Source of the DNA: Salinicola acroporae
Lineage (GTDB): Bacteria > Pseudomonadota > Gammaproteobacteria > Pseudomonadales > Halomonadaceae
Assembly: GCF_003206615.1 (NCBI RefSeq)
Contig: NZ_PZJW01000004.1
Span: forward strand, 481,083 to 545,082
Reading direction: 5' to 3'
Length of the DNA: 64,000 nt
Made by a program: the position numbers and the translations under genes. Below the pieces are notes generated by a model that saw only the letters and a list, made by a program, of their open reading frames with translations, was not told the DNA's origin and searched no databases. This document shows, piece after piece, positions 16,016 to 28,633 of this stretch; position 1 is the first letter of the stretch, and each line of letters starts with the position of its first letter.

Positions 16016-16996
16016 ATGGAAGATCTACCTTCAAGCGATCTCAAAACAATCCTGCACTCCAAGCGGGCCAACCTCTACTACCTGCAGCACTGCCGCGTAC
16101 TGGTCAACGGTGGACGCGTGGAGTACGTCACCGACGAAGGCAAGCGCTCGGCCTACTGGAACATCCCCATCGCCAATACCACCTCGCTGCTGCTGGGTAC
16201 CGGCACCTCGATCACCCAGGCGGCGATGCGCGAGCTGGCCAAGGCCGGTGTTCTGGTCGGTTTTTGCGGTGGCGGCGGCACGCCGCTGTTTTCCGCCAAT
16301 GAAGTCGATGTCGAGGTCGCCTGGTTCAACCCGCAGAGCGAATACCGCCCCACCGAGTACCTGCAACAGTGGGTGCGCTTCTGGTTCGATGATGCGCTGA
16401 GGCTGGAAGCGGCACGCCGCTTTCAGCGTGCGCGCCTGAGCCAGGTCGAACGGCACTGGCTGGACGCACGCTTTCAACGCGATACCGATTTCAAGCCTAG
16501 CGCCGCCGAGTTGAAGGCGCTGCTCGAGCCCAGCCGCGGGGCCATCGACCAGGCAGCGGACACCACCGCACTGCTGACGGAAGAAGCCCGACTGACCAAG
16601 CAGCTGTTCCGGATCGCCACCCAGGCGGTTAGCTATGGCGAATTCGTGCGCGCCAAGAAAGGTAGCGGCGTCGACCCCGCCAACCGCTTTCTCGATCACG
16701 GCAACTATCTCGCCTACGGACTGGGCGCCACTGCCAGTTGGGTGCTGGGGCTACCCCACGGCCTGGCGGTGCTCCACGGCAAGACCCGACGCGGCGGCCT
16801 GGTGTTCGACATCGCCGACCTGATCAAGGATGCCGTCATTTTGCCGCAGGCGTTCATCTCCGCTAGCCGCGGCGACGAGGAGCAGGCATTCCGCCAGGCC
16901 TGCATCGAACGGCTCACCCGCGTCGAGGCGCTGGATACCATGATCGAGGTGGTGCAAGGCGTCGCCGAGCGGTTGGACGGGGAAGCCCGGCGATGA
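16016..16996 (+). CDS. cas1: Type I-F CRISPR-associated integrase Cas1
   Basis: Cas1 integrates new spacers at the leader end of the array, in I-F together with the Cas2-3 fusion. The 326-residue reading from ATG 16016 starts MEDLPSSDLKTILHSKRANLYYLQ, the usual I-F N-terminus; an upstream in-frame start at 15959 is rejected. Family marks are VTDEGKRSAYWNIPIANTT, LLLGTGTSITQAA, the HGLAVLHGKTRRGG histidine segment and FDIADLIKDA, which carries the metal-binding aspartates. The last codons overlap the cas2-3 start (ATGA at 16993-16996), as is standard in subtype I-F. Confidence 0.97.
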   Translation: MEDLPSSDLKTILHSKRANLYYLQHCRVLVNGGRVEYVTDEGKRSAYWNIPIANTTSLLLGTGTSITQAAMRELAKAGVLVGFCGGGGTPLFSANEVDVEVAWFNPQSEYRPTEYLQQWVRFWFDDALRLEAARRFQRARLSQVERHWLDARFQRDTDFKPSAAELKALLEPSRGAIDQAADTTALLTEEARLTKQLFRIATQAVSYGEFVRAKKGSGVDPANRFLDHGNYLAYGLGATASWVLGLPHGLAVLHGKTRRGGLVFDIADLIKDAVILPQAFISASRGDEEQAFRQACIERLTRVEALDTMIEVVQGVAERLDGEARR

Positions 16997-19900
16997 ATGT
17001 GCTGATCGTCTCCCAGTGCCGCAAGAACGCACTCAGGCAGACTCGCCGGATTCTCGACCAGTTCGCCGAGCGCCGCGGCGAACGTACCTGGCAGACAGCG
17101 ATCACCAAGGCCGGGCTCGATACGCTGAGAAAACTGCTGCGCCAGAAGGCGCGCAAGAATACTGCCGTCGCCTGCCACTGGATTCGTGGCCACGGCCACA
17201 GCGAGCTTATGTGGATCGTGGGCGACGCCTCGCAATTCAACGCCCGCGGCGCGACCCCGACCAATACCACCCGGCGCAACATCCTGCGCGGTGAGGACGA
17301 GAACGACTGGCACTCGCTGCGTCAGATTCATCTGCTGGCCTCGATGGCCGCACTGTTCCACGACCTGGGTAAAGCCACCGATGCCTTTCAGCAGCGCCTT
17401 TCGGGCAAGCTGGAAGGACGTAACCGCTACCGCCACGAGTGGGTTTCGCTACGCCTTCTCGAAGCCTTCGTCGGTGGCGATAGCGATGCCGGCTGGCTGG
17501 CGCGACTGCATCAGCCAACAGCCGAAGACGACGCTTGCTGGCTGACGCGCATCAGGAGAGATGGGCTGGACACCCCTGCAGCAGGAGAATCGCCCTTTGC
17601 CCAATTACCGCCGATCGCCGCCGCCATCGGCTGGCTGATCGTCAGCCACCACCGCCTGCCGGCACTACCCGCTGAAAACGACGACGGCTCCCAGAAGTGG
17701 GTGGGGGCCAAGTCGATACTCAATGCCAGTACTCTTCCAGCTCTGCCGGAGGCCATTTCGGCCGGCTGGAACGAACGCGTCGAACCGGCAGCTGCCAACG
17801 AGCTGACGCCATGGTGGCGTTTTTCGCATGGCCTGCCGGTCACAGACAAACCATGGCGAGAGCGGGCGCAGCGATTGGCCCGGCAACTGGACGAGCTGCA
17901 TTGGCAGACGCCACCGCTGGAATCGCCCTACGTCATGCATCTGGCCCGACTCGCCTTGATGCTCGCGGACCATCACTACTCGAGCCTCGTCGATGTCGGG
18001 AGGCTCAGCGGACCTTGGAACGAGGCGCTCTATGCCAATACCACCTTCCACCAAGGCAAGCGCCAGCGCTGCCAACCGCTGACCGAGCATCTGCTGGGCG
18101 TGACGCGCGCCACCGGTGAGATCGTTCACTCACTGCCGGATATCACCACGGCGCTACCGCGAATCGCCCGCCACAAAGGCTTCAGGGCACGCAGCCGTGA
18201 GGCCCGCTTTCGCTGGCAGGACAAGGCCTTCGACCTTGCCTCCGGTCTGCGCGACATGAGCCAGGAACAGGGCTTTTTCGGTATCAATATGGCGTCCACC
18301 GGCTGCGGCAAGACCATCGCCAACGGGCGCATCCTGTATGCGCTGGCCGACCCCGAGAAAGGCGCACGCTTCTCGATCGCGCTGGGTCTGCGCACCCTGA
18401 CCCTGCAAACCGGGCAGGCCTACCGCGAACGGCTCGGGCTCGGTGACGACGAACTGGCCATTCGCGTGGGCGGCAGCGCCAGCCGCGCGCTGTTCACGCA
18501 TCAGCAGCGCGCCGGCGGTTCCGAATCTAGTGCCGAGCTGCTCGATGATCAGGGGCACGTGCTGTTCGAAGGCGATCTGGACGCCCACCGCGTGCTGGGC
18601 AAGGCCGTCGCCGACCCGCAGGCGCGTGCGTTGATCCAGGCCCCGGTGCTGGTCTGTACCATCGACCACCTGATGCCGGCCACCGAAAGCCTGCGCGGCG
18701 GCGGCCAGATTGCACCGATGCTGCGGCTGATGGGCGGCGATCTGGTACTCGACGAACCGGACGATTTCGACATCGATGATCTGCCCGCGCTGACACGCCT
18801 GGTCTACTGGGCCGGTCTGCTGGGCTCCCGCGTACTGCTCTCTTCCGCGACCCTGCCACCGGCGCTGGTGCGTGGTCTGTTCGACGCTTACCGGGAAGGT
18901 CGCGCTGACTATCAGCGGCATCGCGGCATGCCTAACGCGCCGGTCGCCCCCATCTGCGCCTGGTTCGATGAGCATGGCTGCACGCACCAGGGCTGCGCCG
19001 ATGGGGGCGACTTCGATAGTGCCCACGCGGCTTTCGCCCGCAAGCGCGCCGCCCGGCTCGCCAAACTCGATCCCCTGCGACGCGGCACGCGCGTATCTAT
19101 GTCGGCGCCTTCCAAGCATCCAGACGCCATTCATGAGGCGGTGGCGCAAACCATCCTTGCAGAAGCCTTTGCCCTGCATGATCGACACCACACGAGTGAT
19201 ACGCACAGCGGCAAGCGCGTCAGCTTCGGCCTGGTGCGCATGGCCAATATCGAGCCGCTGGTCGCGGTAGCACAGGCCATCTATCGCGCTGCAGTTCCCG
19301 AGGGCACACAAATTCACCTGTGCATCTATCACTCGCAGCTTCCGCTGCTGCTGCGCTCACGCCTGGAAGCCCGGCTCGACCGGGCGCTGGACCGCCGCGA
19401 TCCAGCGGCGATATTCGAACTGGTCGACATTCGCCGACGGCTCGCCGTCGACGCCGACGATCACCTGTTTGTCGTGCTTGGCTCACCGGTGACTGAAGTC
19501 GGCCGAGATCACGATTACGACTGGGCCGTGGTCGAGCCCTCCTCCATGCGCTCGATCATCCAGCTCGCCGGGCGCGTGCGGCGGCACCGGCCCGAGCCGG
19601 TCGAGACACCCAATATTGCCCTGCTGGAAACCAACGTGAAGCATCTGAAGGGCGAACGACCCGCTTTTCGCCGGCCAGGCTTCGAAAACAATGATTGGCC
19701 GCTGACCAAGCATCGACTGCCTACGCTGCTGCGCGATGAGGAAATCGCCGCCATCGACTCGCGCCCGCGTCTACTGCCGGCCGAGCCCCTCGAGCCCACC
19801 AGCAAGCTGGTCGATCTCGAACACGCGCGGCTCACGATGCTGATGGTGGAGGGCGCCGAACCGCCCGGCCAGCGACGCTCGCGTCGGCGCAAGCCGATCC

Positions 19901-20310
19901 ACCTGGGCGCCTATCTGTTCTACCGGCCAACGGCGATGTTACTGAGCGCCGTGGCGATCCAGCAGCAGCCTTTCCGGGAAGACAACGTACCGGATGCCGA
20001 GTTCGTGCTGCTACCCGACGAGACCGAAGAAGATTACGGCTTCTGGCGAGTGGATCAGGAAGGCAAGGAGATAAAGCGGACCCCGGTCGAGTTCGAGCTG
20101 AACCGCCTACCGGACGAGGCGCTGCACAACCCGCGCGTATCACCCTGGAACGAACCGGACTACCTGGCGGCCTTGAGTGAACAAGCCGAGGCCATGGACA
20201 TGACAATCGAGCAATGCGCGATGCGTTTCGGCCGCATTCGCCTCAAACCGGATCGAGCCCCGCAGGGGTGGCACTTTCATCCGGCACTGGGGTTTGTGAG
20301 ACGGAAATAA
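16993..20310 (+). CDS. cas3f: Type I-F Cas2-Cas3 fusion nuclease-helicase
   Basis: This 1105-residue protein joins Cas2 (about residues 1-90, starting MNVLIVSQCRKNALRQTRRILDQ) to a Cas3 effector that unwinds and shreds DNA flagged by the Csy complex. The HD nuclease motif is His123-Asp124 in ALFHDLGKATD. The superfamily 2 helicase has Walker A STGCGKT near residue 435 and a DExD-type box LVLDEPDDFD near residue 583, then SATLPPALV and the C-terminal motif QLAGRVRRHR. The length and domain order are those of I-F Cas3. It is followed by an unusually long and structured 439-bp gap before csy1. Confidence 0.97.
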   Translation: MNVLIVSQCRKNALRQTRRILDQFAERRGERTWQTAITKAGLDTLRKLLRQKARKNTAVACHWIRGHGHSELMWIVGDASQFNARGATPTNTTRRNILRGEDENDWHSLRQIHLLASMAALFHDLGKATDAFQQRLSGKLEGRNRYRHEWVSLRLLEAFVGGDSDAGWLARLHQPTAEDDACWLTRIRRDGLDTPAAGESPFAQLPPIAAAIGWLIVSHHRLPALPAENDDGSQKWVGAKSILNASTLPALPEAISAGWNERVEPAAANELTPWWRFSHGLPVTDKPWRERAQRLARQLDELHWQTPPLESPYVMHLARLALMLADHHYSSLVDVGRLSGPWNEALYANTTFHQGKRQRCQPLTEHLLGVTRATGEIVHSLPDITTALPRIARHKGFRARSREARFRWQDKAFDLASGLRDMSQEQGFFGINMASTGCGKTIANGRILYALADPEKGARFSIALGLRTLTLQTGQAYRERLGLGDDELAIRVGGSASRALFTHQQRAGGSESSAELLDDQGHVLFEGDLDAHRVLGKAVADPQARALIQAPVLVCTIDHLMPATESLRGGGQIAPMLRLMGGDLVLDEPDDFDIDDLPALTRLVYWAGLLGSRVLLSSATLPPALVRGLFDAYREGRADYQRHRGMPNAPVAPICAWFDEHGCTHQGCADGGDFDSAHAAFARKRAARLAKLDPLRRGTRVSMSAPSKHPDAIHEAVAQTILAEAFALHDRHHTSDTHSGKRVSFGLVRMANIEPLVAVAQAIYRAAVPEGTQIHLCIYHSQLPLLLRSRLEARLDRALDRRDPAAIFELVDIRRRLAVDADDHLFVVLGSPVTEVGRDHDYDWAVVEPSSMRSIIQLAGRVRRHRPEPVETPNIALLETNVKHLKGERPAFRRPGFENNDWPLTKHRLPTLLRDEEIAAIDSRPRLLPAEPLEPTSKLVDLEHARLTMLMVEGAEPPGQRRSRRRKPIHLGAYLFYRPTAMLLSAVAIQQQPFREDNVPDAEFVLLPDETEEDYGFWRVDQEGKEIKRTPVEFELNRLPDEALHNPRVSPWNEPDYLAALSEQAEAMDMTIEQCAMRFGRIRLKPDRAPQGWHFHPALGFVRRK

Positions 20311-20330
20311 GGCAGCCAGCCCTGGGGGCC

Positions 20331-20413
20331 GGCTGCGGCTGCCTGTGCGGCAGATAAACTGGCCACTGATGCTTTGGGCAGTAGTTTTCTCAGCTGCCAT
20401 TGCGGCAGGAGCA
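20331..20413 (-). ncRNA. Candidate CreR/CreA-like CRISPR-resembling guide RNA (two pseudo-repeats and a pseudo-spacer)
   Basis: Read on the minus strand, 20413-20386 resembles the array repeat: 19 of the last 23 positions match, the hairpin arms CTGCC and GGCAG are intact and the 5' handle is CTGAGAAA (array CTCAGAAA). A second element at 20353-20338 reads CTGCCGCACAGGCAGC, matching the repeat core at 15 of 16 positions. Exactly 32 nt separate handle and second stem, against 37 in the array. Cas6f could therefore excise a crRNA-like molecule. A TACAAT box at 20421-20416 would start transcription near 20409. The pseudo-spacer seed ACTAC-GCCCAAA matches a CC-PAM target nearby. Known CreA and CreR RNAs have this design; the identity here is inferred from sequence alone. 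Confidence 0.75.
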
Positions 20414-20427
20414 GCATTGTATATAAT
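20400..20427 (+). promoter_or_regulatory. Plus-strand promoter TTGCGG-16-TATAAT, overlapping the minus-strand guide-RNA promoter
   Basis: A perfect TATAAT lies at 20422-20427 with TTGCGG at 20400-20405, spacing 16 bp. Transcription would begin near 20434 and run toward csy1. The -35 element lies inside pseudo-repeat 1, and the minus-strand TACAAT (20416-20421) abuts TATAAT, so RNA polymerase can occupy only one promoter at a time. Confidence 0.6.
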
Positions 20428-20444
20428 CGGAGCCATCCGAATCC

Positions 20445-20495
20445 ATGAATCTCCGAACCACTTATTGTTTGGGCTGTAGTGGTTTCTTTTTTTAG
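20445..20495 (+). CDS. Candidate 16-codon micro-ORF in a CreT-like position
   Basis: An ATG at 20445 lies about 11 nt after the predicted start of transcription and opens a 16-codon frame (MNLRTTYCLGCSGFFF) that ends TTC TTT TTT TAG within a T-run. The whole frame is covered by the guide-RNA target. Its codons (TTT, TAT, TGT, TTG, CGA, AGT) are unlike the GC-rich usage of neighbouring genes. There is no convincing ribosome site; a CGGAG lies 12 nt upstream. It could be a toxin, a leader peptide or noncoding. It is listed because its position matches creT in known CreTA modules. Confidence 0.3.
   Translation: MNLRTTYCLGCSGFFF
20449..20482 (-). promoter_or_regulatory. Protospacer for the pseudo-spacer, with CC PAM, predicted Csy-complex roadblock
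   Basis: The minus strand reads CC (20482-20481), then ACTACAGCCCAAAC and onward to 20449. Against the 32-nt pseudo-spacer it matches positions 1-5, 7-13, 16-17, 19-23, 27 and 31-32, that is 22 of 32. The CC PAM and positions 1-5, 7 and 8 are what I-F recognition needs. Extensive PAM-distal mismatch would favour binding without Cas3 cleavage. The site spans about +16 to +49 of the plus-strand promoter. Confidence 0.75.
20456..20493 (+). terminator. Weak stem followed by T-run, possible end of a short RNA
   Basis: AACCACT (20456-20462) pairs with AGTGGTT (20478-20484) around a 15-base loop and is followed by TTCTTTTTTT up to 20493. If it works as an intrinsic terminator, it would release a roughly 60-nt RNA from the promoter at 20422. 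The stem is AT-rich and short, so readthrough into csy1 is also possible. Confidence 0.4.
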
Positions 20496-20511
20496 GGTGG
20501 AGCGGTAGTTT

Positions 20512-20544
20512 GTCCACGTGGGCACTGGTCCTGCCCACGTGGAC
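20512..20544. repeat. Perfect 13-bp inverted repeat upstream of csy1
   Basis: GTCCACGTGGGCA and TGCCCACGTGGAC are exact complements around the 7-base loop CTGGTCC. No T-tract follows. It could be a hairpin in the csy leader RNA or a double operator built on CACGTGG half-sites. Confidence 0.75.
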
Positions 20545-20616
20545 ATGGAAGCAACGCTGAGGTTGAGAGCCCTCACCCAAGCTCACTGGGTAGGCGTGAG
20601 CAGGAGGATGCGCAAC

Positions 20617-20655
20617 GTGGCTGGCCACCACCGCAAGATAATACCCTTCAGATAG
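20617..20655 (+). CDS. Candidate 12-codon micro-ORF with AGGAGG site and rare codons
   Basis: AGGAGG at 20602-20607 is spaced 9 nt before GTG 20617, which opens a 12-codon frame ending ATA ATA CCC TTC AGA TAG. Tandem ATA and a terminal AGA are rare codons in a GC-rich gammaproteobacterium. The same frame extends back to a GTG at 20596 through AGC AGG AGG ATG. Reported CreT toxins are minimal ORFs whose rare codons trap scarce tRNAs, so this is an alternative creT candidate on the same transcript. Evidence is composition and context only. Confidence 0.25.
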   Translation: MAGHHRKIIPFR

Positions 20656-20701
20656 GCTTTGCCTATCCAAACCACGCCCCGAGGCAGCAATGCTTCGGGG
20701 C
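20651..20701. repeat. Two hairpins in the csy1 leader
   Basis: GATAGGC-TTT-GCCTATC (20651-20667) is a perfect 7-bp stem with a 3-base loop. GCCCCGA (20676-20682) pairs with TCGGGGC (20695-20701). Both precede csy1 by less than 100 bp and may shape the leader or end a small RNA. Confidence 0.5.
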
Positions 20702-20749
20702 TCATTATGCCATGCCTCCACAAACCTCCCAACCAATGGCAACTAGTCC

Positions 20750-22135
20750 ATGTCGGAATTTCCATCACCGACGTCCATTCGCGCGCTGATTGAGCAATTC
20801 ATTCTTGATCGTTTTCTGACCAAGACGGAAAAGCTCGCGCCGGACGACCCCGTTTATCTCAAACTGCAGCAGCAGTTCGATCCGCAGACCTGGCTTGCCG
20901 ATGCTGCACGTCGCGTCAGTCAGCTTCAGGTCGTCACCCACTCGCTCAAGGCGATCCATCCCGACGCCAAAGGCACCAATCTCTACGTAGAACCCGGTCA
21001 GCTAAAGCGCCGAGAACTGGTGGGGAGCCACTGCCTGCCGGCTGACTTCGAAGGCGATGTCGTAGGTAACGCAGCCGCACTGGATGTCTACAAGTTCCTC
21101 AAGCTGACATGGGAAGAACGCTCGCTGCTGGAACGAGCGCTCGATGGCGACGAAGCGCTGATCGAGGCTTTGAGCCAAGACCGAGTGGAAGCAGAAAGCT
21201 GGGTGCGTGCCTTCGCGGATATCGTCGAGCCAAAAGGCACGCCAAGCTCTCATGCGCGTGGCAAGCAGATCTATTGGCTGGTGGGCGATAACCCTGCCAG
21301 TGACGAAGACTATCGCTTGTTGGCACCTCTCTATGCGACAGCGCTCACCCATCCGGTTCATGCACGGCTGAGCGAGGCACGTTTCGGGGACCACGCCAAG
21401 GCGGGCCGCAAGGCACGACGCGAAGATGCCGTTTTTCAGGGTGGCTATGCCGACTATCTGAACCTCTCGGTTCAAAAGCTCGGGGGCACCAAGCCCCAGA
21501 ACATCTCTCAGCTCAATAGCGAGCGTGGCGGGCAGAACTATCTGCTCGCCTCGTTACCACCCCAATGGCAGTCACGTGAGGTCACGCCCCCTCTACGCAC
21601 TGAGTCGGTTTTTCCCCGTTTCGGAAGGCGGGCACCAGTGAGGCAGGTGGTCAATGACCTTGTGAGCTGGATGAGACAGAACTCCAAGGAGGATGAAAAA
21701 CGACAGAAAGAAGGTAAAAGACTGCGAAAAGCGGTACAGGATCGAAACTACCATAAAGATCTTGTTGCATCGCTAACCGACGAACTCTTGCTATTCACCT
21801 TCGAGCTACATCGCTTACCGGCAGGCTGGTCGACAGATGCTGAATGCCGTCTGGTTTTAGCAGAACAATACTGGCTGGATCCGGGCCGGGCAGCACAAGA
21901 CGTCGATTTCGATAGCAACTGCCGACAGTCGCAATGGCATGAAGAGGTAGCTCTGCGTTTTGCCAGATGGCTACGCCACGCTATCGATCGTCGAGTGACG
22001 ACAGGCCTTGGCGATCCGGAACATGACTTCTGGGCCAAGCAGGTTGAGGTCGTAATGGAAAGCCTCCGCCGCCAGCTCGACGACCTGCAAGATGCGCTGC
22101 ATGACGACGAGGAAGACGCAGGAGACCTGACATGA
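20750..22135 (+). CDS. csy1: Csy1 (Cas8f), large subunit of the type I-F surveillance complex
   Basis: Csy1 forms, with Csy2, the tail that holds the 5' handle of the crRNA and reads the CC PAM. The 461-residue product begins MSEFPSPTSIRALIEQFILDR and contains the family stretches LKAIHPDAKGTNLY, GDNPASDEDYRLLAPLYATAL and QNISQLNSERGGQNYLLASLPP. The ATG at 20750 has no strong ribosome site, so the structured leader may influence its translation. The stop overlaps the csy2 start (ATGA at 22132-22135). Confidence 0.95.
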   Translation: MSEFPSPTSIRALIEQFILDRFLTKTEKLAPDDPVYLKLQQQFDPQTWLADAARRVSQLQVVTHSLKAIHPDAKGTNLYVEPGQLKRRELVGSHCLPADFEGDVVGNAAALDVYKFLKLTWEERSLLERALDGDEALIEALSQDRVEAESWVRAFADIVEPKGTPSSHARGKQIYWLVGDNPASDEDYRLLAPLYATALTHPVHARLSEARFGDHAKAGRKARREDAVFQGGYADYLNLSVQKLGGTKPQNISQLNSERGGQNYLLASLPPQWQSREVTPPLRTESVFPRFGRRAPVRQVVNDLVSWMRQNSKEDEKRQKEGKRLRKAVQDRNYHKDLVASLTDELLLFTFELHRLPAGWSTDAECRLVLAEQYWLDPGRAAQDVDFDSNCRQSQWHEEVALRFARWLRHAIDRRVTTGLGDPEHDFWAKQVEVVMESLRRQLDDLQDALHDDEEDAGDLT

Positions 22136-23124
22136 TCGATTCCATCTCACATCTCCTGGTTCTACCCCATCTACGCATCCAGAACGCCAACGCCATTTCC
22201 AGTTCGATGACCTGGGGCTTCCCTGCCATGAGCGCCTTCATGGGCGCTGTTCAGGCACTGGAGCGCAGTCTGCCCGACGATATCCAGATTGTCTTCGACG
22301 GTGTCGGCGTGGTGTGTCATCACATCGAGCCGCAGGTCACCGAGGGCGGATTTACCCGGGCGTTTCACCTCACGCGCAATCCCGTGGACAAGTCCGGCGC
22401 CACGGCAGCCATCGTCGAGGAAGGACGCGCGCATCTGGACGTGACCCTGCTGATCGGCATCGAGTCCGATGGCGACGATCTGAGCAATGCCGAGCGCCGT
22501 CGGGCCATTGCTCGCCAACTGTTCGATCAGGTGCAGAGCATGCGAATCGCCGGTGGCAGCGTCATGCCGTCTCTGAACGAGTCAAGGCGGCAGCGCCCCG
22601 AGCTGATCACCTTCGATGACAACGAAGAGGAACGCAGCAAACAGTGGCGACGCCTCAAGCGACGTCTGCTGCCTGGCTTTGCGTTGGTGCTGCGAGATGA
22701 CTATCTGACCGAGCACACGAAAACACTCGAGGCCGAAGACGACAACGCGACCGCCCTGGACGCCTGGCTCGATCTCTGCCGGCTCAACCACGAGTGCCGA
22801 ATCGAGACGCATCAAGATAAGGATGGCCAGACCAAGGAAGTGGCGAAGTGGGAGATTCGCCGCCCCTACCCTGGCTGGCTGGTGCCCATCCCGGTCGGCT
22901 ATGGCGCGATTTCCGAGCTATTCGATCCCGGCGAGGTCGCCAATGCGCGTGATTCGCGGGTGCCGTTCCAATTCGTCGAGAGCCTTTATTCGATCGGCGA
23001 GTGGGTCAGCCCGCATCGACTGCGCACCCCGGACGCGCTGTTGTGGTTCGTCGACAACGATCTCGAACGTGGTGTTTACCGCCTCACCAACGACTACAGC
23101 CTGACCCATTCCAACGCAGACTGA
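22132..23124 (+). CDS. csy2: Csy2 (Cas5f), 5'-handle binding subunit
   Basis: This 330-residue Cas5-type protein pairs with Csy1 to cap the 5' end of the crRNA. Family marks include the N-terminal [26 protein letters not shown], split over residues 7-32, the central [11 protein letters not shown], and RIAGGSVMP, the usual I-F segment. The C-terminal [15 protein letters not shown] and [14 protein letters not shown] also fit. It overlaps csy1 by four bases and is 19 bp from csy3. Confidence 0.95.
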
Positions 23125-23143
23125 TCATCAAGGAGAATCCATC

Positions 23144-24181
23144 ATGGCCAAGAACGACGCTCTGAAAACCGCTTCCGTCCTCGCCTTCGAGCGCAAGCTC
23201 GACCCCTCCGATGCGCTGTTCAGCGCCGGCAACTGGGATAAGCGCGACCAATTCACCGCCTGGCCCCACATCCCGGTCACGGAAAAGTCCGTGCGCGGCA
23301 CCATTTCCAACCGCCTGAAGACCAAGGATCAGGACCCGGCCAAACTCGATGCCGCCATCGAAAATCCCAATCTTCAGACCGTAGACGTCGCCGCGCTGCC
23401 CCACGATGCCGACACCCTGGCGGTACACTTCACGCTGCGCGTGCTGGCCGGCGCCGGTACTCCCTCGGCCTGCAACAGTGCCGACTATCAAGCCAAGCTA
23501 AAGCAGGCGGTCGAGAGCTACGCCAGCGAGCACGGCTTTAAGGAACTGGCCCATCGCTACGCCTGCAACCTCGCCAATGGGCGCTTCCTGTGGCGCAACC
23601 GTCTCAAGGCAGAAGCGCTCGAAGTGACGGTGCGCCAGACCCGGGCCGGGGCGACCGAACAAGCGTGGACCTTCGGCGATGCCCTGGAGCGCTCGACCCG
23701 TGACTTTACTGGCGACGAGCAGACTCGCACGCTGGGCGAAGTGATCGCCAAGGCACTGGCCGGCGAGCAATACCTGCTGCTGGATGTGGTCGCTTTTGCG
23801 CGCATCGGCGCCGGCCAGGAAGTCTTCCCGTCGCAGGAGTTGATCCTCGACCGCGCCCGCGGCGACAAGAGCAAGACGCTCTACAGCATCGGCGACGACA
23901 AGAGCGCCGCCATTCACTCGCAGAAGATCGGCAACGCCCTGCGTACCATCGACACCTGGTACCCGGCGCCGGCGGACGGCAGCGATCTGGGGCCGATCGC
24001 CGTCGAGCCCTACGGCTCGGTGACCACCCAGGGAACGGCCTACCGCCAACCGAAGCAGAAAGTGGACTTCTACAACCTGCTCGACAACTGGCTGCTCAAG
24101 GACCAGGCGCCGGCAACCGAGCAGCAGCACTTCGTGATGGCGACCCTGATCCGTGGTGGTGTCTTCGGCGACGCGGGGTGA
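23144..24181 (+). CDS. csy3: Csy3 (Cas7f), backbone subunit
   Basis: Csy3 polymerises six-fold along the spacer portion of the crRNA and kinks every sixth nucleotide out of pairing. This is why position-6 mismatches in the nearby pseudo-spacer target are tolerated. The protein has 345 residues and starts [23 protein letters not shown] after an AAGGAGAAT ribosome site, the strongest in the operon, as expected for the most abundant subunit. Typical segments are [23 protein letters not shown]-like [10 protein letters not shown] and [11 protein letters not shown]. Confidence 0.96.
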
Positions 24182-24184
24182 ACC

Positions 24185-24754
24185 ATGGACCACTACATCG
24201 ACCTTCGCCTGCGTCCCGACCCGGATTTTCCGCCATCCATGCTGATGGGCGCGCTCTATGGCCGGCTGCATCGTGCGCTGTTCGACCAGGACGCGAACGA
24301 CATCGGCGTGAGCTTTCCGGATCACAAGACCGGCGTGCGAGCACGCACGCCGGGTGACCGACTACGCCTGCACGGAAAACACCAGAGCCTGACGCAACTC
24401 ATGGTGCAACCCTGGCTCAATGGCATGCGCGAACTCGTCGAGACCGGCGACATTCTGCCAGTACCCGACGGAGTCCTGCATCGCGTGGTCAGGCGCCGGC
24501 AGTTCAAGACCGGCAACGACAGCCAGGTGAAGCGCTACGCACGGCGTCACGCTATCGACCTCGAAGAGGCGCGAGCGAGGTTCGCAAGCAGCAGCGAACC
24601 ACGCATTACCCTGCCTTTCGTTTCACTCAACAGCCGGTCCAGTCAGCAACGCTTCGCCCTGTTCATCGAGCACGGCGAACCGCAGCCGACACCGGCTGAT
24701 GGCTCCTTCAATCAATACGGCCTGAGCCAGGGGGCAACTATCCCCTGGTTCTGA
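24185..24754 (+). CDS. cas6f: Cas6f (Csy4) crRNA endoribonuclease
   Basis: This 189-residue nuclease cuts at the base of the repeat hairpin, leaving an 8-nt 5' handle, and stays bound to the 3' stem. His29 (GRLHRALF) falls at the number of the catalytic histidine known for the Pseudomonas aeruginosa enzyme. An arginine-rich helix (VVRRRQFKTGNDSQVKRYARR, residues about 104-124) is the RNA major-groove reader. The C-terminus NQYGLSQGATIPWF is the conserved I-F tail. It follows csy3 by three bases and precedes the array leader. Its hairpin target is conserved in both pseudo-repeats at 20331-20413. Confidence 0.96.
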   Translation: MDHYIDLRLRPDPDFPPSMLMGALYGRLHRALFDQDANDIGVSFPDHKTGVRARTPGDRLRLHGKHQSLTQLMVQPWLNGMRELVETGDILPVPDGVLHRVVRRRQFKTGNDSQVKRYARRHAIDLEEARARFASSSEPRITLPFVSLNSRSSQQRFALFIEHGEPQPTPADGSFNQYGLSQGATIPWF

Positions 24755-24883: not shown

Positions 24884-27800
24884 GTGCGCTGCCGCCCAGG
24901 CAGCTCAGAAAATGACCACAGCAGAACACGCCCGGCTACGGCTGTGCGCTGCCGCCCAGGCAGCTCAGAAAGCACCGCCGAGGAAGTGGCGGTTGAGGCG
25001 ATGGTGCGCTGCCGCCCAGGCAGCTCAGAAATTCAAGCTCATCGACTACGCGGGCGTGAAAGTGTGCGCTGCCGCCCAGGCAGCTCAGAAATCGACCACC
25101 GCACTCGCAAGACCACCAGTGGTGTGCGCTGCCGCCCAGGCAGCTCAGAAATGCCCGCCTACACCGAAGACAGCGCGGCCGGAGTGCGCTGCCGCCCAGG
25201 CAGCTCAGAAAGCCTTGCTGCCGGATGGCTGTGCGTGTACTGCGTGCGCTGCCGCCCAGGCAGCTCAGAAAGCCGAAAAATGCCTCTTCATGGTCAGCGA
25301 CGGCGTGCGCTGCCGCCCAGGCAGCTCAGAAAGTCGGCAAGCGTGACGGCAAGCCGCTAAAGGCGTGCGCTGCCGCCCAGGCAGCTCAGAAATACACGCC
25401 AACGGATACCGCAAACCTGCCTGAGTGCGCTGCCGCCCAGGCAGCTCAGAAAGATGAACGGCTACCGCCGTTGCGCCGGATAACGTGCGCTGCCGCCCAG
25501 GCAGCTCAGAAAGGAATGAGAACCATCGACAACAGCTGGAATCGGTGCGCTGCCGCCCAGGCAGCTCAGAAAGCCATGCAGCGCGCTAGCGCATTCACCC
25601 CATCGTGCGCTGCCGCCCAGGCAGCTCAGAAAGCCCACACGGCAAAGTCGTGTGGCCACATGCTGTGCGCTGCCGCCCAGGCAGCTCAGAAAGTCAGGGC
25701 GGCGGCTTTGCGCTGCAGCCCAACGTGCGCTGCCGCCCAGGCAGCTCAGAAACTGTTCCAGGCGCTCGACGAACTGGCCGAGCAGTGCGCTGCCGCCCAG
25801 GCAGCTCAGAAAAGAGCGCGGCGAGAACGCGCGCCACTCTGAGTGTGCGCTGCCGCCCAGGCAGCTCAGAAAGAACTGACCGGATGGACGCCGCGAACTA
25901 TCGAGTGCGCTGCCGCCCAGGCAGCTCAGAAAATCGGATTGCCAGAAAACACTCAGAGACCAAGGTGCGCTGCCGCCCAGGCAGCTCAGAAAAGAACGAA
26001 CCATCAGCATCAGCCACGGATATCGTGCGCTGCCGCCCAGGCAGCTCAGAAATGCTGAAGAAATCGGACCTGCGCGACGCCGGCGTGCGCTGCCGCCCAG
26101 GCAGCTCAGAAACGAACAGAGCCTGGCTGGGCTGAGCGCTTCAAGGTGCGCTGCCGCCCAGGCAGCTCAGAAAAATCGCCCTGATCCTCGGAAGGCGGTC
26201 GGCTTGTGCGCTGCCGCCCAGGCAGCTCAGAAAAGTCTGTCGAGTCAGCTTCCTGCCACTGGAAGGTGCGCTGCCGCCCAGGCAGCTCAGAAATCTGGGC
26301 GTATTCGGACGAACAGGGCGCAATCGTGCGCTGCCGCCCAGGCAGCTCAGAAAGTAATGAGGTCCGCGTGGTGCAAGGACGAGACGTGCGCTGCCGCCCA
26401 GGCAGCTCAGAAACTCATCGACCACATCTACGCCGATCGCTACTGGTGCGCTGCCGCCCAGGCAGCTCAGAAAGAAAGAAAGCCCATCGCCAGCAAGGCG
26501 GGCTCGTGCGCTGCCGCCCAGGCAGCTCAGAAAGACAAGGAGTGGAACTCAAGCGACGTCCTGGCGTGCGCTGCCGCCCAGGCAGCTCAGAAACCATGCG
26601 CCCAAAGGCGCTGTTGATGGCCATGGTGCGCTGCCGCCCAGGCAGCTCAGAAAACGAATGTTAGTGTAAACCTTACGCCCTTCGGGTGCGCTGCCGCCCA
26701 GGCAGCTCAGAAAGCTACGTCATGCAGCACGATACCAAACAGGAGGTGCGCTGCCGCCCAGGCAGCTCAGAAACTCATCAAAACGTCTTCTGCTAGCTCC
26801 CGGATGTGCGCTGCCGCCCAGGCAGCTCAGAAAACCGCCAAGGGCAAGCGCTCGGAAGAGAACACGTGCGCTGCCGCCCAGGCAGCTCAGAAACCAGCGA
26901 GTACATCGCGCTCGAGTGGAGCGATGTGCGCTGCCGCCCAGGCAGCTCAGAAATTCTCGACCAGATCAGCAACTGGACGCATTACGTGCGCTGCCGCCCA
27001 GGCAGCTCAGAAATCGGTGCTGCGGCGATCGCTGCATTCACCATTGTGCGCTGCCGCCCAGGCAGCTCAGAAATGTTCGAGCTGTTCCGTGCCAAGTTCG
27101 GCGTAGTGCGCTGCCGCCCAGGCAGCTCAGAAAATTGGCGATGATCGTCGCCAAACCTTTCCCGGGTGCGCTGCCGCCCAGGCAGCTCAGAAACTGCCCT
27201 GCTGCTCTGGACATGAGCGGCCAATGTGCGCTGCCGCCCAGGCAGCTCAGAAAACCGAGACCTACGCCGGCCAATACTGGCGCGGGTGCGCTGCCGCCCA
27301 GGCAGCTCAGAAATCAGTATCCGTCGCTCTCGTCCGTCATTTGCCGTGCGCTGCCGCCCAGGCAGCTCAGAAAATCATTGGGACAGACCAGCGAACAACG
27401 ATTCAGTGCGCTGCCGCCCAGGCAGCTCAGAAACTCGATCATTCTCGCCCTGCACCCAATCCATAGTGCGCTGCCGCCCAGGCAGCTCAGAAAACCAAGG
27501 CCCGCAAGGTGCCCCCGGTCAGCCCGTGCGCTGCCGCCCAGGCAGCTCAGAAAAACGACATCGCGATCACCGGGCGCCAGCCGAGGTGCGCTGCCGCCCA
27601 GGCAGCTCAGAAATATCTGCTGTACATGAGACACCTTGGAACGGTGTGCGCTGCCGCCCAGGCAGCTCAGAAATACCAGATTGCCCCTGAACCGGGTAAT
27701 TACAGGTGCGCTGCCGCCCAGGCAGCTCAGAAAAGGTGCGGGTGTTGATTTGGTAATAGCCTCGGGTGCGCTGCCGCCCAGGCAGCTCAGAAAGAGGGGA

Positions 27801-28633
27801 TGGCCATGTAGCGATCCACGATGGCGTGCGCTGCCGCCCAGGCAGCTCAGAAAGCCCTACGCAGCGCGAGACAGTACCCGGCACGGTGCGCTGCCGCCCA
27901 GGCAGCTCAGAAAATCGCCAAAGAGACGGGTAAATAACGATGACTGTGCGCTGCCGCCCAGGCAGCTCAGAAAATATCACCAAGATCAAGAGAAACATCA
28001 TACATGTGCGCTGCCGCCCAGGCAGCTCAGAAAATATCCCCAAGGCTGCGAGAGCTGACCTCAGCGTGCGCTGCCGCCCAGGCAGCTCAGAAAGACGGCC
28101 GCAAGATCAGCGCCGACTGGCTCAAGTGCGCTGCCGCCCAGGCAGCTCAGAAAAAATCGGCATCGTGATAGACAACCAGAACACCGTGCGCTGCCGCCCA
28201 GGCAGCTCAGAAAAATGCGAGCGCCTGGTCGGCGGTTTCTTCGACGTGCGCTGCCGCCCAGGCAGCTCAGAAAAGCAGCGCTGGGCAGCTACCTGATGAC
28301 GAGAAGTGCGCTGCCGCCCAGGCAGCTCAGAAAATGACAACGAACTTGTGAATCAAAAATTTTATGTGCGCTGCCGCCCAGGCAGCTCAGAAATTGACGA
28401 ATGCACGCTTGTGGCGTTCGATCAGGTGCGCTGCCGCCCAGGCAGCTCAGAAAATCAACACCACGAAGCCTTGATTTCTGACACGGTGCGCTGCCGCCCA
28501 GGCAGCTCAGAAACAGTCTTTCGTCTATGGTTCCGACGCCACCACGTGCGCTGCCGCCCAGGCAGCTCAGAAAAGGTCGCCCGAGTGAAGCAGCCCTAGT
28601 AGTTCGTGCGCCCCCGCCCAGGCAGCCCATAAT
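24884..28633 (+). CRISPR. Type I-F CRISPR array: 63 repeats of 28 bp, 62 spacers
   Basis: The 28-bp repeat runs from GTGCGCTGCCGCCCAGG to CAGCTCAGAAA and contains the CTGCC/GGCAG hairpin. By row counting there are 63 repeats, first at 24884 and last at 28606. The first 62 look identical. The last is degenerate, with changes at positions 7, 8, 22, 25 and 28, and marks the leader-distal end. Spacers are 32 nt except two of 33 nt (before the repeats at 25305 and 26146). The array is read in the same direction as the cas genes. No spacer was recognised as matching elsewhere in this window by eye. The length and the lack of internal repeat decay suggest an active or recently active system. Confidence 0.98.

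Follow-up and report, generated by a model that had tools for sequence, protein, structure and literature searches.

Guides encoded in mini-CRISPR arrays are said to regulate cas genes, a mode called CreR that was reportedly described in 2023 by Shmakov and by Liu. Reviews also describe CreR in the portions available (PMC12737573, PMC12948488). In CreTA modules, the guide (CreA) represses a toxin (CreT), which CreR lacks. A type I-F example is found in Acinetobacter sp. WCHA45, where, according to the accessible part of the report, the cas3-csy1 gap contains a creA with two pseudo-repeats, its target next to a CC PAM, and, running divergently, a 33-bp mini-ORF led by a Shine-Dalgarno (SD) sequence (PMC10097628). 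In the same part of the report, this CreT is described to kill and to need its SD, its start codon, and a start-codon hairpin; toxicity depends on codons 2, 3, and 5 and not on rare codons, and guide positions 6, 11, and 18 are unpaired (PMC10097628). The terms "rare codon" and "consecutive" are absent from the main text of that paper. Haloarchaeal CreT of type I-B, as far as the accessible text describes it, cannot do without its start codon, a stem-loop, and a pair of adjacent AGA or AUA codons, and sequesters a rare tRNA; one such CreT, from H. hispanica, also has a strong SD (PMC8501985).

As judged by comparing sequences, the cas3-csy1 gap of Salinicola acroporae, a member of the Halomonadaceae, probably houses a type I-F CreTA module of a new variant. 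With WCHA45, in so far as that system is described in the text available, it shares a cas3-csy1 gap of ~400 bp, the orientation, two pseudo-repeats, a CC PAM, skipped guide positions 6 and 18, and an SD-led mini-ORF, the start codon of which lies in a small hairpin there and is able to pair here. It differs in its tandem rare codons at positions 8-9 and the GC-rich hairpin after the ORF, in a target located just upstream of the presumed -35 element rather than downstream of the promoter, and in leaving position 12, not 11, free. Archaeal CreTA, in the portion of the literature available, likewise features a degenerate-repeat guide partly complementary to the creT promoter, and a mini-ORF with a rare codon pair and a stem-loop after it (PMC9458426); it belongs to another subtype and domain, and its mini-ORFs are just 4-6 codons long, the rare pair coming soon after the start codon. 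The archaeal CreTA descriptions examined, which were partial, mention no hairpin at the start codon. As in CreR, a crRNA-like guide is partly complementary to a cas-operon promoter; unlike CreR as described in the available text, the window and 25 relatives carry a toxin-like ORF between target and csy1. In the literature searched, no CreTA of such kind was found for the Halomonadaceae, and the 19 further modules of PMC10097628 may include some.

The mini-array in the Salinicola acroporae window

The window, a 64,000-nt stretch of the S. acroporae genome, contains an I-F operon of cas1f, cas3f, and csy1-csy4 with the array after it. The plus strand carries cas3f (cas2-3; 16993..20310; TIGR02562), csy1 (cas8f; 20750..22135; TIGR02564), the csy2, csy3, and csy4 genes for the remainder of the Csy complex (22132..24754; open frames above curated cut-offs), and the main I-F CRISPR array with repeat GTGCGCTGCCGCCCAGGCAGCTCAGAAA (24884..28600, end approximate). 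In the 439-bp gap between cas3f and csy1, the minus strand bears two degenerate repeats flanking a 32-nt guide. Pseudo-repeat 1 of this CreA-like guide gene (20386..20413) consists of the stem-loop CTGCC-GCAAT-GGCAG, with a 5-bp stem and a 5-nt loop, and the 8-nt handle CTGAGAAA. It is followed by the guide, or pseudo-spacer, which runs from the handle to the second stem (20354..20385), by the pseudo-repeat 2 stem-loop CTGCC-GCACA-GGCAG (20339..20353), and by a terminator-like hairpin (20312..20336) at which the guide transcript may end, all on the minus strand. A candidate -10 element of the guide gene, TACAAT (20416..20421, minus strand), was recognized by eye 7 nt ahead of the pseudo-repeat 1 stem, having been missed by the promoter scan; like hexamers occur thereabouts in some relatives. 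The window thus has, close to its cas genes, the kind of guide gene typical of CreTA, crRNA-like and with one or two degenerate repeats.

When the repeat pattern was sought across the 4.37-Mb genome with at most two mismatches, the minus strand yielded pseudo-repeat 1 alone and the plus strand 62 array copies. In an Rfam search, pseudo-repeat 2 gave a weak CRISPR-DR4 match under the gathering score; four matches were obtained up to E = 1, none reaching gathering scores. From handle to stem the mini-array measures 32 nt, as opposed to 37 nt in the main array (a 32-nt spacer plus 5).

The guide matches a site only 63 bp away (20449..20480, minus strand as protospacer strand), which is flanked by a CC PAM (20481..20482, minus strand; GG on the plus strand). 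The match extends over 22 of 32 positions, including all 12 among positions 1-13 once position 6 is set aside. Shuffling the target and the guide 2,000 times each never gave 22/32 or 12/12 together with a CC PAM. The pattern CC plus positions 1-5, 7-11, and 13 has a single exact occurrence genome-wide, the target itself; there are no further exact targets, and seven sites with one mismatch do not exceed chance, given 15 for the reversed pattern. A scan of the whole window for a pseudo-repeat, a guide, and its own target within 1,500 bp returned nothing besides this mini-array and its target. An ordinary mini-CRISPR array is argued against by the degenerate repeats, the opposite strand, and the match of the guide to the host's own locus.

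These results confirm that the element singled out by the first-pass annotation is real. That annotation had reported two degenerate minus-strand repeats with these stems, and its coordinates and counts were correct; the spacing, the 22/32 match, and the PAM that it gave were all reproduced. Its description of positions 1-5 and 7-13 as perfect, with position 6 flipped out, agrees with the 12/12 score and with the near-chance match at position 6 in relatives, and the shuffles bear out its view that a chance match is very unlikely. Its range took in the mini-array and the target and ended before the toxin-like ORF at 20617-20655.

Guide-target pairing across Halomonadaceae

A csy1 match at E <= 1e-20 was found in 78 of 275 genomes of the family, and the gap upstream of csy1 was read at 78 loci, one per genome, the window included; G141 and G171 each count as one locus despite a second csy1 match. 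The first 32 loci were hand-picked from a scan for minus-strand pseudo-repeats, plus-strand or weaker extra candidates being put aside in L033, L034, L041, L048, L052, L056, L059, and L060. In all 32, the best C-preceded site has a CC PAM and 10-12 matches out of 12 (positions 1-14 minus 6 and 12); the target of L067 lies on the other strand than in the remaining picked loci. An automatic program required hairpin, handle, guide, and own CC target jointly, at a cut-off of 12/15. It found the mini-array layout in 38 of the 78 loci, window included, against 3 of 1,560 shuffled-guide controls. L043 and L048 fell below the cut-off of 12 and were admitted at a lower one, giving 40/78; more degenerate modules were possibly missed. 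For L019 the minus-strand target was used, the program preferring a plus-strand site that overlaps the guide, and scanning covered the last 1,500 bp of the L040 gap and 600 bp for L106, which is without a cas3 match. In loci without a mini-array in the cas3-csy1 gap, none was seen upstream of cas1 (20 stretches, from 38 such loci, and the first 2 kb of L003).

Handle-to-stem distances range from 19 to 37 nt over the 32 loci, 28 of them lying below the canonical 37. A guide length changing in 6-nt steps was hinted at by these loci and was rejected because 12 loci outside the family deviate, as judged by eye. At L034, a pseudo-repeat and a 19-nt guide are followed by two repeats enclosing a full-length second spacer, making a two-spacer mini-array. 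In L075 and L076, two copies of the target were observed, 18 and 24 bp apart and both with a CC PAM; the nearer adjoins the start of the guide gene, and autoregulation of the guide is possible there.

The pairing follows a distinct pattern. Over the 32 loci, guide and target match in 100% of cases at positions 1-5 and 7, in 84-97% at positions 8-11, and in 72-94% at positions 13-17; the values are 22% at position 6, 31% at 12, 31% at 18, and 56% at 19, and beyond this mostly near chance. With one locus per guide cluster (17 loci), the shape is alike and noisier, with 41% at position 12, 53% at 14, and 18% at 18. Sites were selected by their score at positions 1-17 minus 6 and 12, which somewhat raises the values at those positions. 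Guides score a mean of 13.7/15 in their own gap and 7.8/15 in the gaps of other loci, indicating that the low match at positions 6, 12, and 18 is not an artefact of selection. The Csy complex flips bases out at a 6-nt rhythm, and the unpaired positions 6, 12, and 18 are its flipped-out bases.

Guides differ between lineages, and each fits its own target: the own scores sum to 439, with 100,000 permutations peaking at 304, and the own site is best or tied in 31 of 32 rows. The guide-target covariation that the first-pass annotation had proposed to look for is present at the paired positions. Between related guides, substitutions at these positions are mirrored in the target in 17 of 27 cases for disjoint pairs (104 of 150 for all 39 pairs), whereas none are mirrored at positions 6 and 12 (0/8 and 0/29, respectively). 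The mirrored substitutions indicate that pairing, rather than sequence, is conserved. In another I-F1 system, according to the accessible part of the report, truncated R-loops form without triggering Cas2/3, and guides of 14-176 nt assemble (PMC7296934). By analogy, pairing as short as that seen here should result in binding without cutting.

The leader between the target and csy1

Near the PAM, many relatives carry what resembles a promoter directed toward csy1. TTGA occurs within 8 nt of the PAM on the csy1 strand in 24 of the 39 loci having a minus-strand target (letter shuffles: mean 0.97, maximum 7), and in 8 of 16 when one locus per guide cluster is taken. In many relatives this TTGA, as a -35 element, adjoins the PAM, with a -10-like hexamer 16-18 nt further, and the best promoter score near the PAM averages 7.7/12, compared with shuffle means of 5.9 and a largest of 6.4. 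With such a signal right after the PAM, the Csy complex would abut the -35 of a csy1-directed promoter. A guide partly complementary to a PAM-flanked site at a nearby promoter, as in CreTA, is found in the window as well, where the promoter is inferred from relatives and weak. Indeed, the window is not among the 24 loci (its sister L009 has TTGATT), and its presumed creT promoter (20483..20511, plus strand) is a poor match, with TTTCTT (2/6) and TAGTTT (3/6) 17 apart and a best score of 5/12. The promoter scan of the region returned no plus-strand promoter, its two hits lying on the minus strand inside the leader (20732-20704 and 20665-20638). Both the weak promoter and the scan count against CreTA, and with such a promoter the copy in this strain may have lost its activity. 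Across the family, the comparison of loci strongly supports a repression that is directed by the guide, depends on Csy, and acts on the promoter adjoining the target. The Csy-dependent repressor circuit proposed in the first-pass annotation stands to that extent, with CreA repressing CreT preferred here to autorepression of cas.

Downstream of this promoter, the plus strand holds a hairpin of 13 bp close to where the leader is predicted to begin (20512..20544), the SD AGGAGG (20602..20607), and a CreT-like mini-ORF of GTG, 11 further codons, and TAG (20617..20655; MAGHHRKIIPFR), in which codons 8-9 are tandem rare ATA ATA codons (20638..20643). An 11-bp GC-rich hairpin (20676..20701, plus strand) lies 3' of the mini-ORF; it is terminator-like, with a poor T tract, and is absent from the terminator-scan output. 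The toxin-gene features of CreTA, namely SD, start codon, tandem rare codons, and stem-loop, are all present as features of the sequence. The window leader as a whole (20505-20749) is hairpin-rich, its parts beyond the mini-ORF resemble those of relatives by eye, and a function as csy1 leader RNA is possible.

A mini-ORF with two successive rare codons (AUA, AGA, AGG, or UUA) accompanies the mini-array in 26 of 40 loci and occurs in 0 of the 38 others. Hence 26 loci have both, 14 the mini-array alone, none the mini-ORF alone, and 38 neither. Its SD is AGGAGG, in three loci GGAGG or AGGAG. The rare pair occupies codons 8-9 in 24 loci and 6-7 in two, and is AUA-AUA in 11, AGA-AGA in 11, AGG-AGG in two, AGG-AGA in one, and UUA-UUA in one; each pair encodes one amino acid, and three amino acids are represented across the 26. 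When codons are ranked by rarity in the 36 long ORFs of the window (15,696 codons), UUA comes first, AGA shares second place, AUA is fifth, and AGG is seventh, at 0.8-2.5 per 1,000; in pooled csy1 genes UUA is less rare (8.7 per 1,000). The median rarity rank over 24 loci (L075 and L076 excluded) is 3 of 61 at codons 8 and 9 and 20-50 at codons 2-7, 10, and 11. Since the pair differs between relatives, even between the Csy1 sisters L030 (AGA) and L031 (AUA), what is conserved seems to be how rare the codons are and not which amino acid they encode. A search of both strands of 987,284 bases from 41 sources (the window and L038-L077) yielded 27 ORFs of 9-14 codons preceded by an SD. Ten of these have a rare pair at codons 8-9, and every one of the ten lies in a cas3-csy1 gap and permits start-codon pairing.

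Such pairing joins the start codon to codon 5 (nt 1-3 with nt 13-15) in 26/26 loci and nt 4 to nt 12 in 25/26. Codon 4 (nt 10-12) can pair as well in 25/26, so the start-codon hairpin is suggestive only. Compared with the UUAGC given for codons 2 and 3 of WCHA45 in the text available, loop nt 5-9 show either no change or nothing but transitions in 21 of 26 loci, and a transversion in three; L075 and L076 differ outright. With start-codon pairing and tandem rare codons occurring together, the window's family seems to combine both toxin designs.

Certain features of the mini-ORF loci count against CreTA. The rare pair, at codons 8-9 or in two loci 6-7, is further from the start than in archaeal CreT as described in the available text. 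Two contrasts with WCHA45 weigh on the same side: its target is downstream of the promoter, and its toxicity relies on codons 2, 3, and 5 instead of on rare codons. The mini-ORF has 8-12 codons in 25 of 26 loci, and the L030 frame runs for 60 codons without a stop. Because the T tract of the 3' hairpin is poor and the terminator scan passed it over, transcription may continue into csy1. Finally, the loci without a mini-array mostly have short gaps (many of 27-270 bp), which leave less room for an ORF.

Competing readings and spread of the module

An alternative that appears unlikely is CreR, in which the guide would send the Csy complex to repress csy1-csy4 and the mini-ORF would be a mere part of the leader. 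The presumed promoter beside the target points toward csy1, as CreR would have it, and in the 14 of 40 mini-array loci without a mini-ORF the target lies 10-150 nt ahead of csy1. CreR leaves unexplained why SD and tandem rare codons are present in 26/26 loci with a target at least 240 nt from csy1, why the mini-ORF is absent from 38/38 loci lacking a mini-array, and why codon identity changes at a fixed place. In CreR, the target is at the cas promoter and no toxin stands between it and the cas genes; the window has a toxin-like ORF there, and the 14 relatives have none. These 14 look, from their arrangement, like cases of CreR-type cas autorepression.

Considerably less probable still is a leader-peptide attenuator, in which stalling at the rare pair would control the hairpin ahead of csy1, allowing cas to sense when a rare tRNA is lost; the guide would add a second level of control. 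A hairpin with a stem of 9 bp or more does come after the mini-ORF in 23 of 26 loci, its end lying 47-68 nt ahead of csy1 (L015, L034, and L076 have other or weaker ones), and the window leader folds better than 200/200 shuffles (z -4.16); the codon pair, however, changes among three amino acids, and the start-codon pairing and loop resemble those of a toxin known to kill. A chance match or functionless remnant of an ordinary array is scarcely credible: degenerate pseudo-repeats, a weak creT promoter in the window, and the lack of the module in 38/78 family loci speak for it, yet 0/2,000 shuffles equal the match and pairing is conserved across the family while the sequence changes.

CreA repressing CreT is the better reading because the window and 25 relatives have a leader with SD, a mini-ORF with tandem rare codons, and mostly a GC-rich hairpin. 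By this comparison, what is repressed is most likely the CreT toxin, and csy1 at most additionally, a read-through effect on csy1 being possible. We infer the following course of events. The minus-strand mini-array would act as creA, and Cas6f would cut its two pseudo-repeats, releasing a crRNA-like guide to be taken up by the Csy complex. Within that complex it would pair with 20480-20449 over about the first 17 positions, the flipped-out positions staying unpaired. Such an R-loop would not be long enough for Cas2/3 to be triggered, and the complex is proposed only to block the promoter with its -35 next to the PAM. From there creT would be transcribed, a short RNA with a strong SD, a mini-ORF, a start codon able to fold into a small hairpin, the rare pair, and a GC-rich 3' hairpin. 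Were the Csy complex lost or inhibited, creT would be released and translation would stall, through sequestration of a rare tRNA (here the AUA-decoding tRNA-Ile), trapping of initiating ribosomes, or both. Release of creT upon loss of Csy is thus proposed to make the cell dependent on its own CRISPR system.

A sample of the class comprised 369 genomes, of which 34 had csy1 matches, and 30 loci were fetched. A mini-array with target was found in 13 of the 30, and in 12 of 28 outside the family, without a shuffled control. Three of the latter have SD-led frames with start-codon pairing and two like codons: AGA-AGA (L138, 10 codons), AGA-AGA at codons 6-7 (L144, 8 codons), and UUA-UUA (L135, frame open for >200 codons). 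L140 has UCA-AUA, and inspection by eye gave L143 a frame of 5 codons that allows pairing but lacks a rare pair; no such frame was seen in the remaining seven of the 12.

On a Csy1 tree of 77 loci, from which L077 with its broken csy1 was left out, the CreT label requires 14 changes, 12 of these being forced by well supported branches; some rows are long-branched and their placement is unsure. The gap measures just 35-40 bp at thirteen loci, which gives the impression that the module was excised there. In L032 and L033 (gap ~1,137 bp), a two-gene insert separates guide and target and the creT mini-ORF is absent; the L032 insert proteins match Pfam ParD and ParE, and perhaps a protein toxin replaced creT in these loci. 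A two-gene minus-strand insert that looks HicA/HicB-like by eye was observed in L040, L043, L048, L056, and L059 (gaps of 844-2,214 bp). An identification of this cargo as HicAB was rejected, as the two ORFs tested gave no Pfam match at E <= 0.001. Ten loci have a gap of 227-228 bp, which in L044 and L047 resembles, by eye, a remnant of the insert's second gene.

Tentatively, and with less confidence than the CreTA assignment itself, these loci may represent an I-F CreT family that joins a ribosome-trapping start-codon hairpin to an exchangeable slot for a rare pair at codons 8-9, addressed to the tRNAs for AUA, AGA, AGG, and UUA. Such a family would extend across Halomonadaceae, and similar frames turn up in one locus each of three further families in the class; toxin and guide would seemingly have disappeared jointly on many occasions. 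More modules could be sought by unpaired positions at 6, 12, and 18, often TTGA after the PAM, an SD, and a rare pair at codons 8-9. The 26 natural variants make killing by bacterial CreT, and the roles of hairpin versus rare tRNA, directly testable, with the ORF-less gaps as matched CreR controls. If the proposal is true, ordinary proteobacterial CRISPR systems widely carry a self-protecting RNA toxin, the target tRNA of which has been swapped in evolution.
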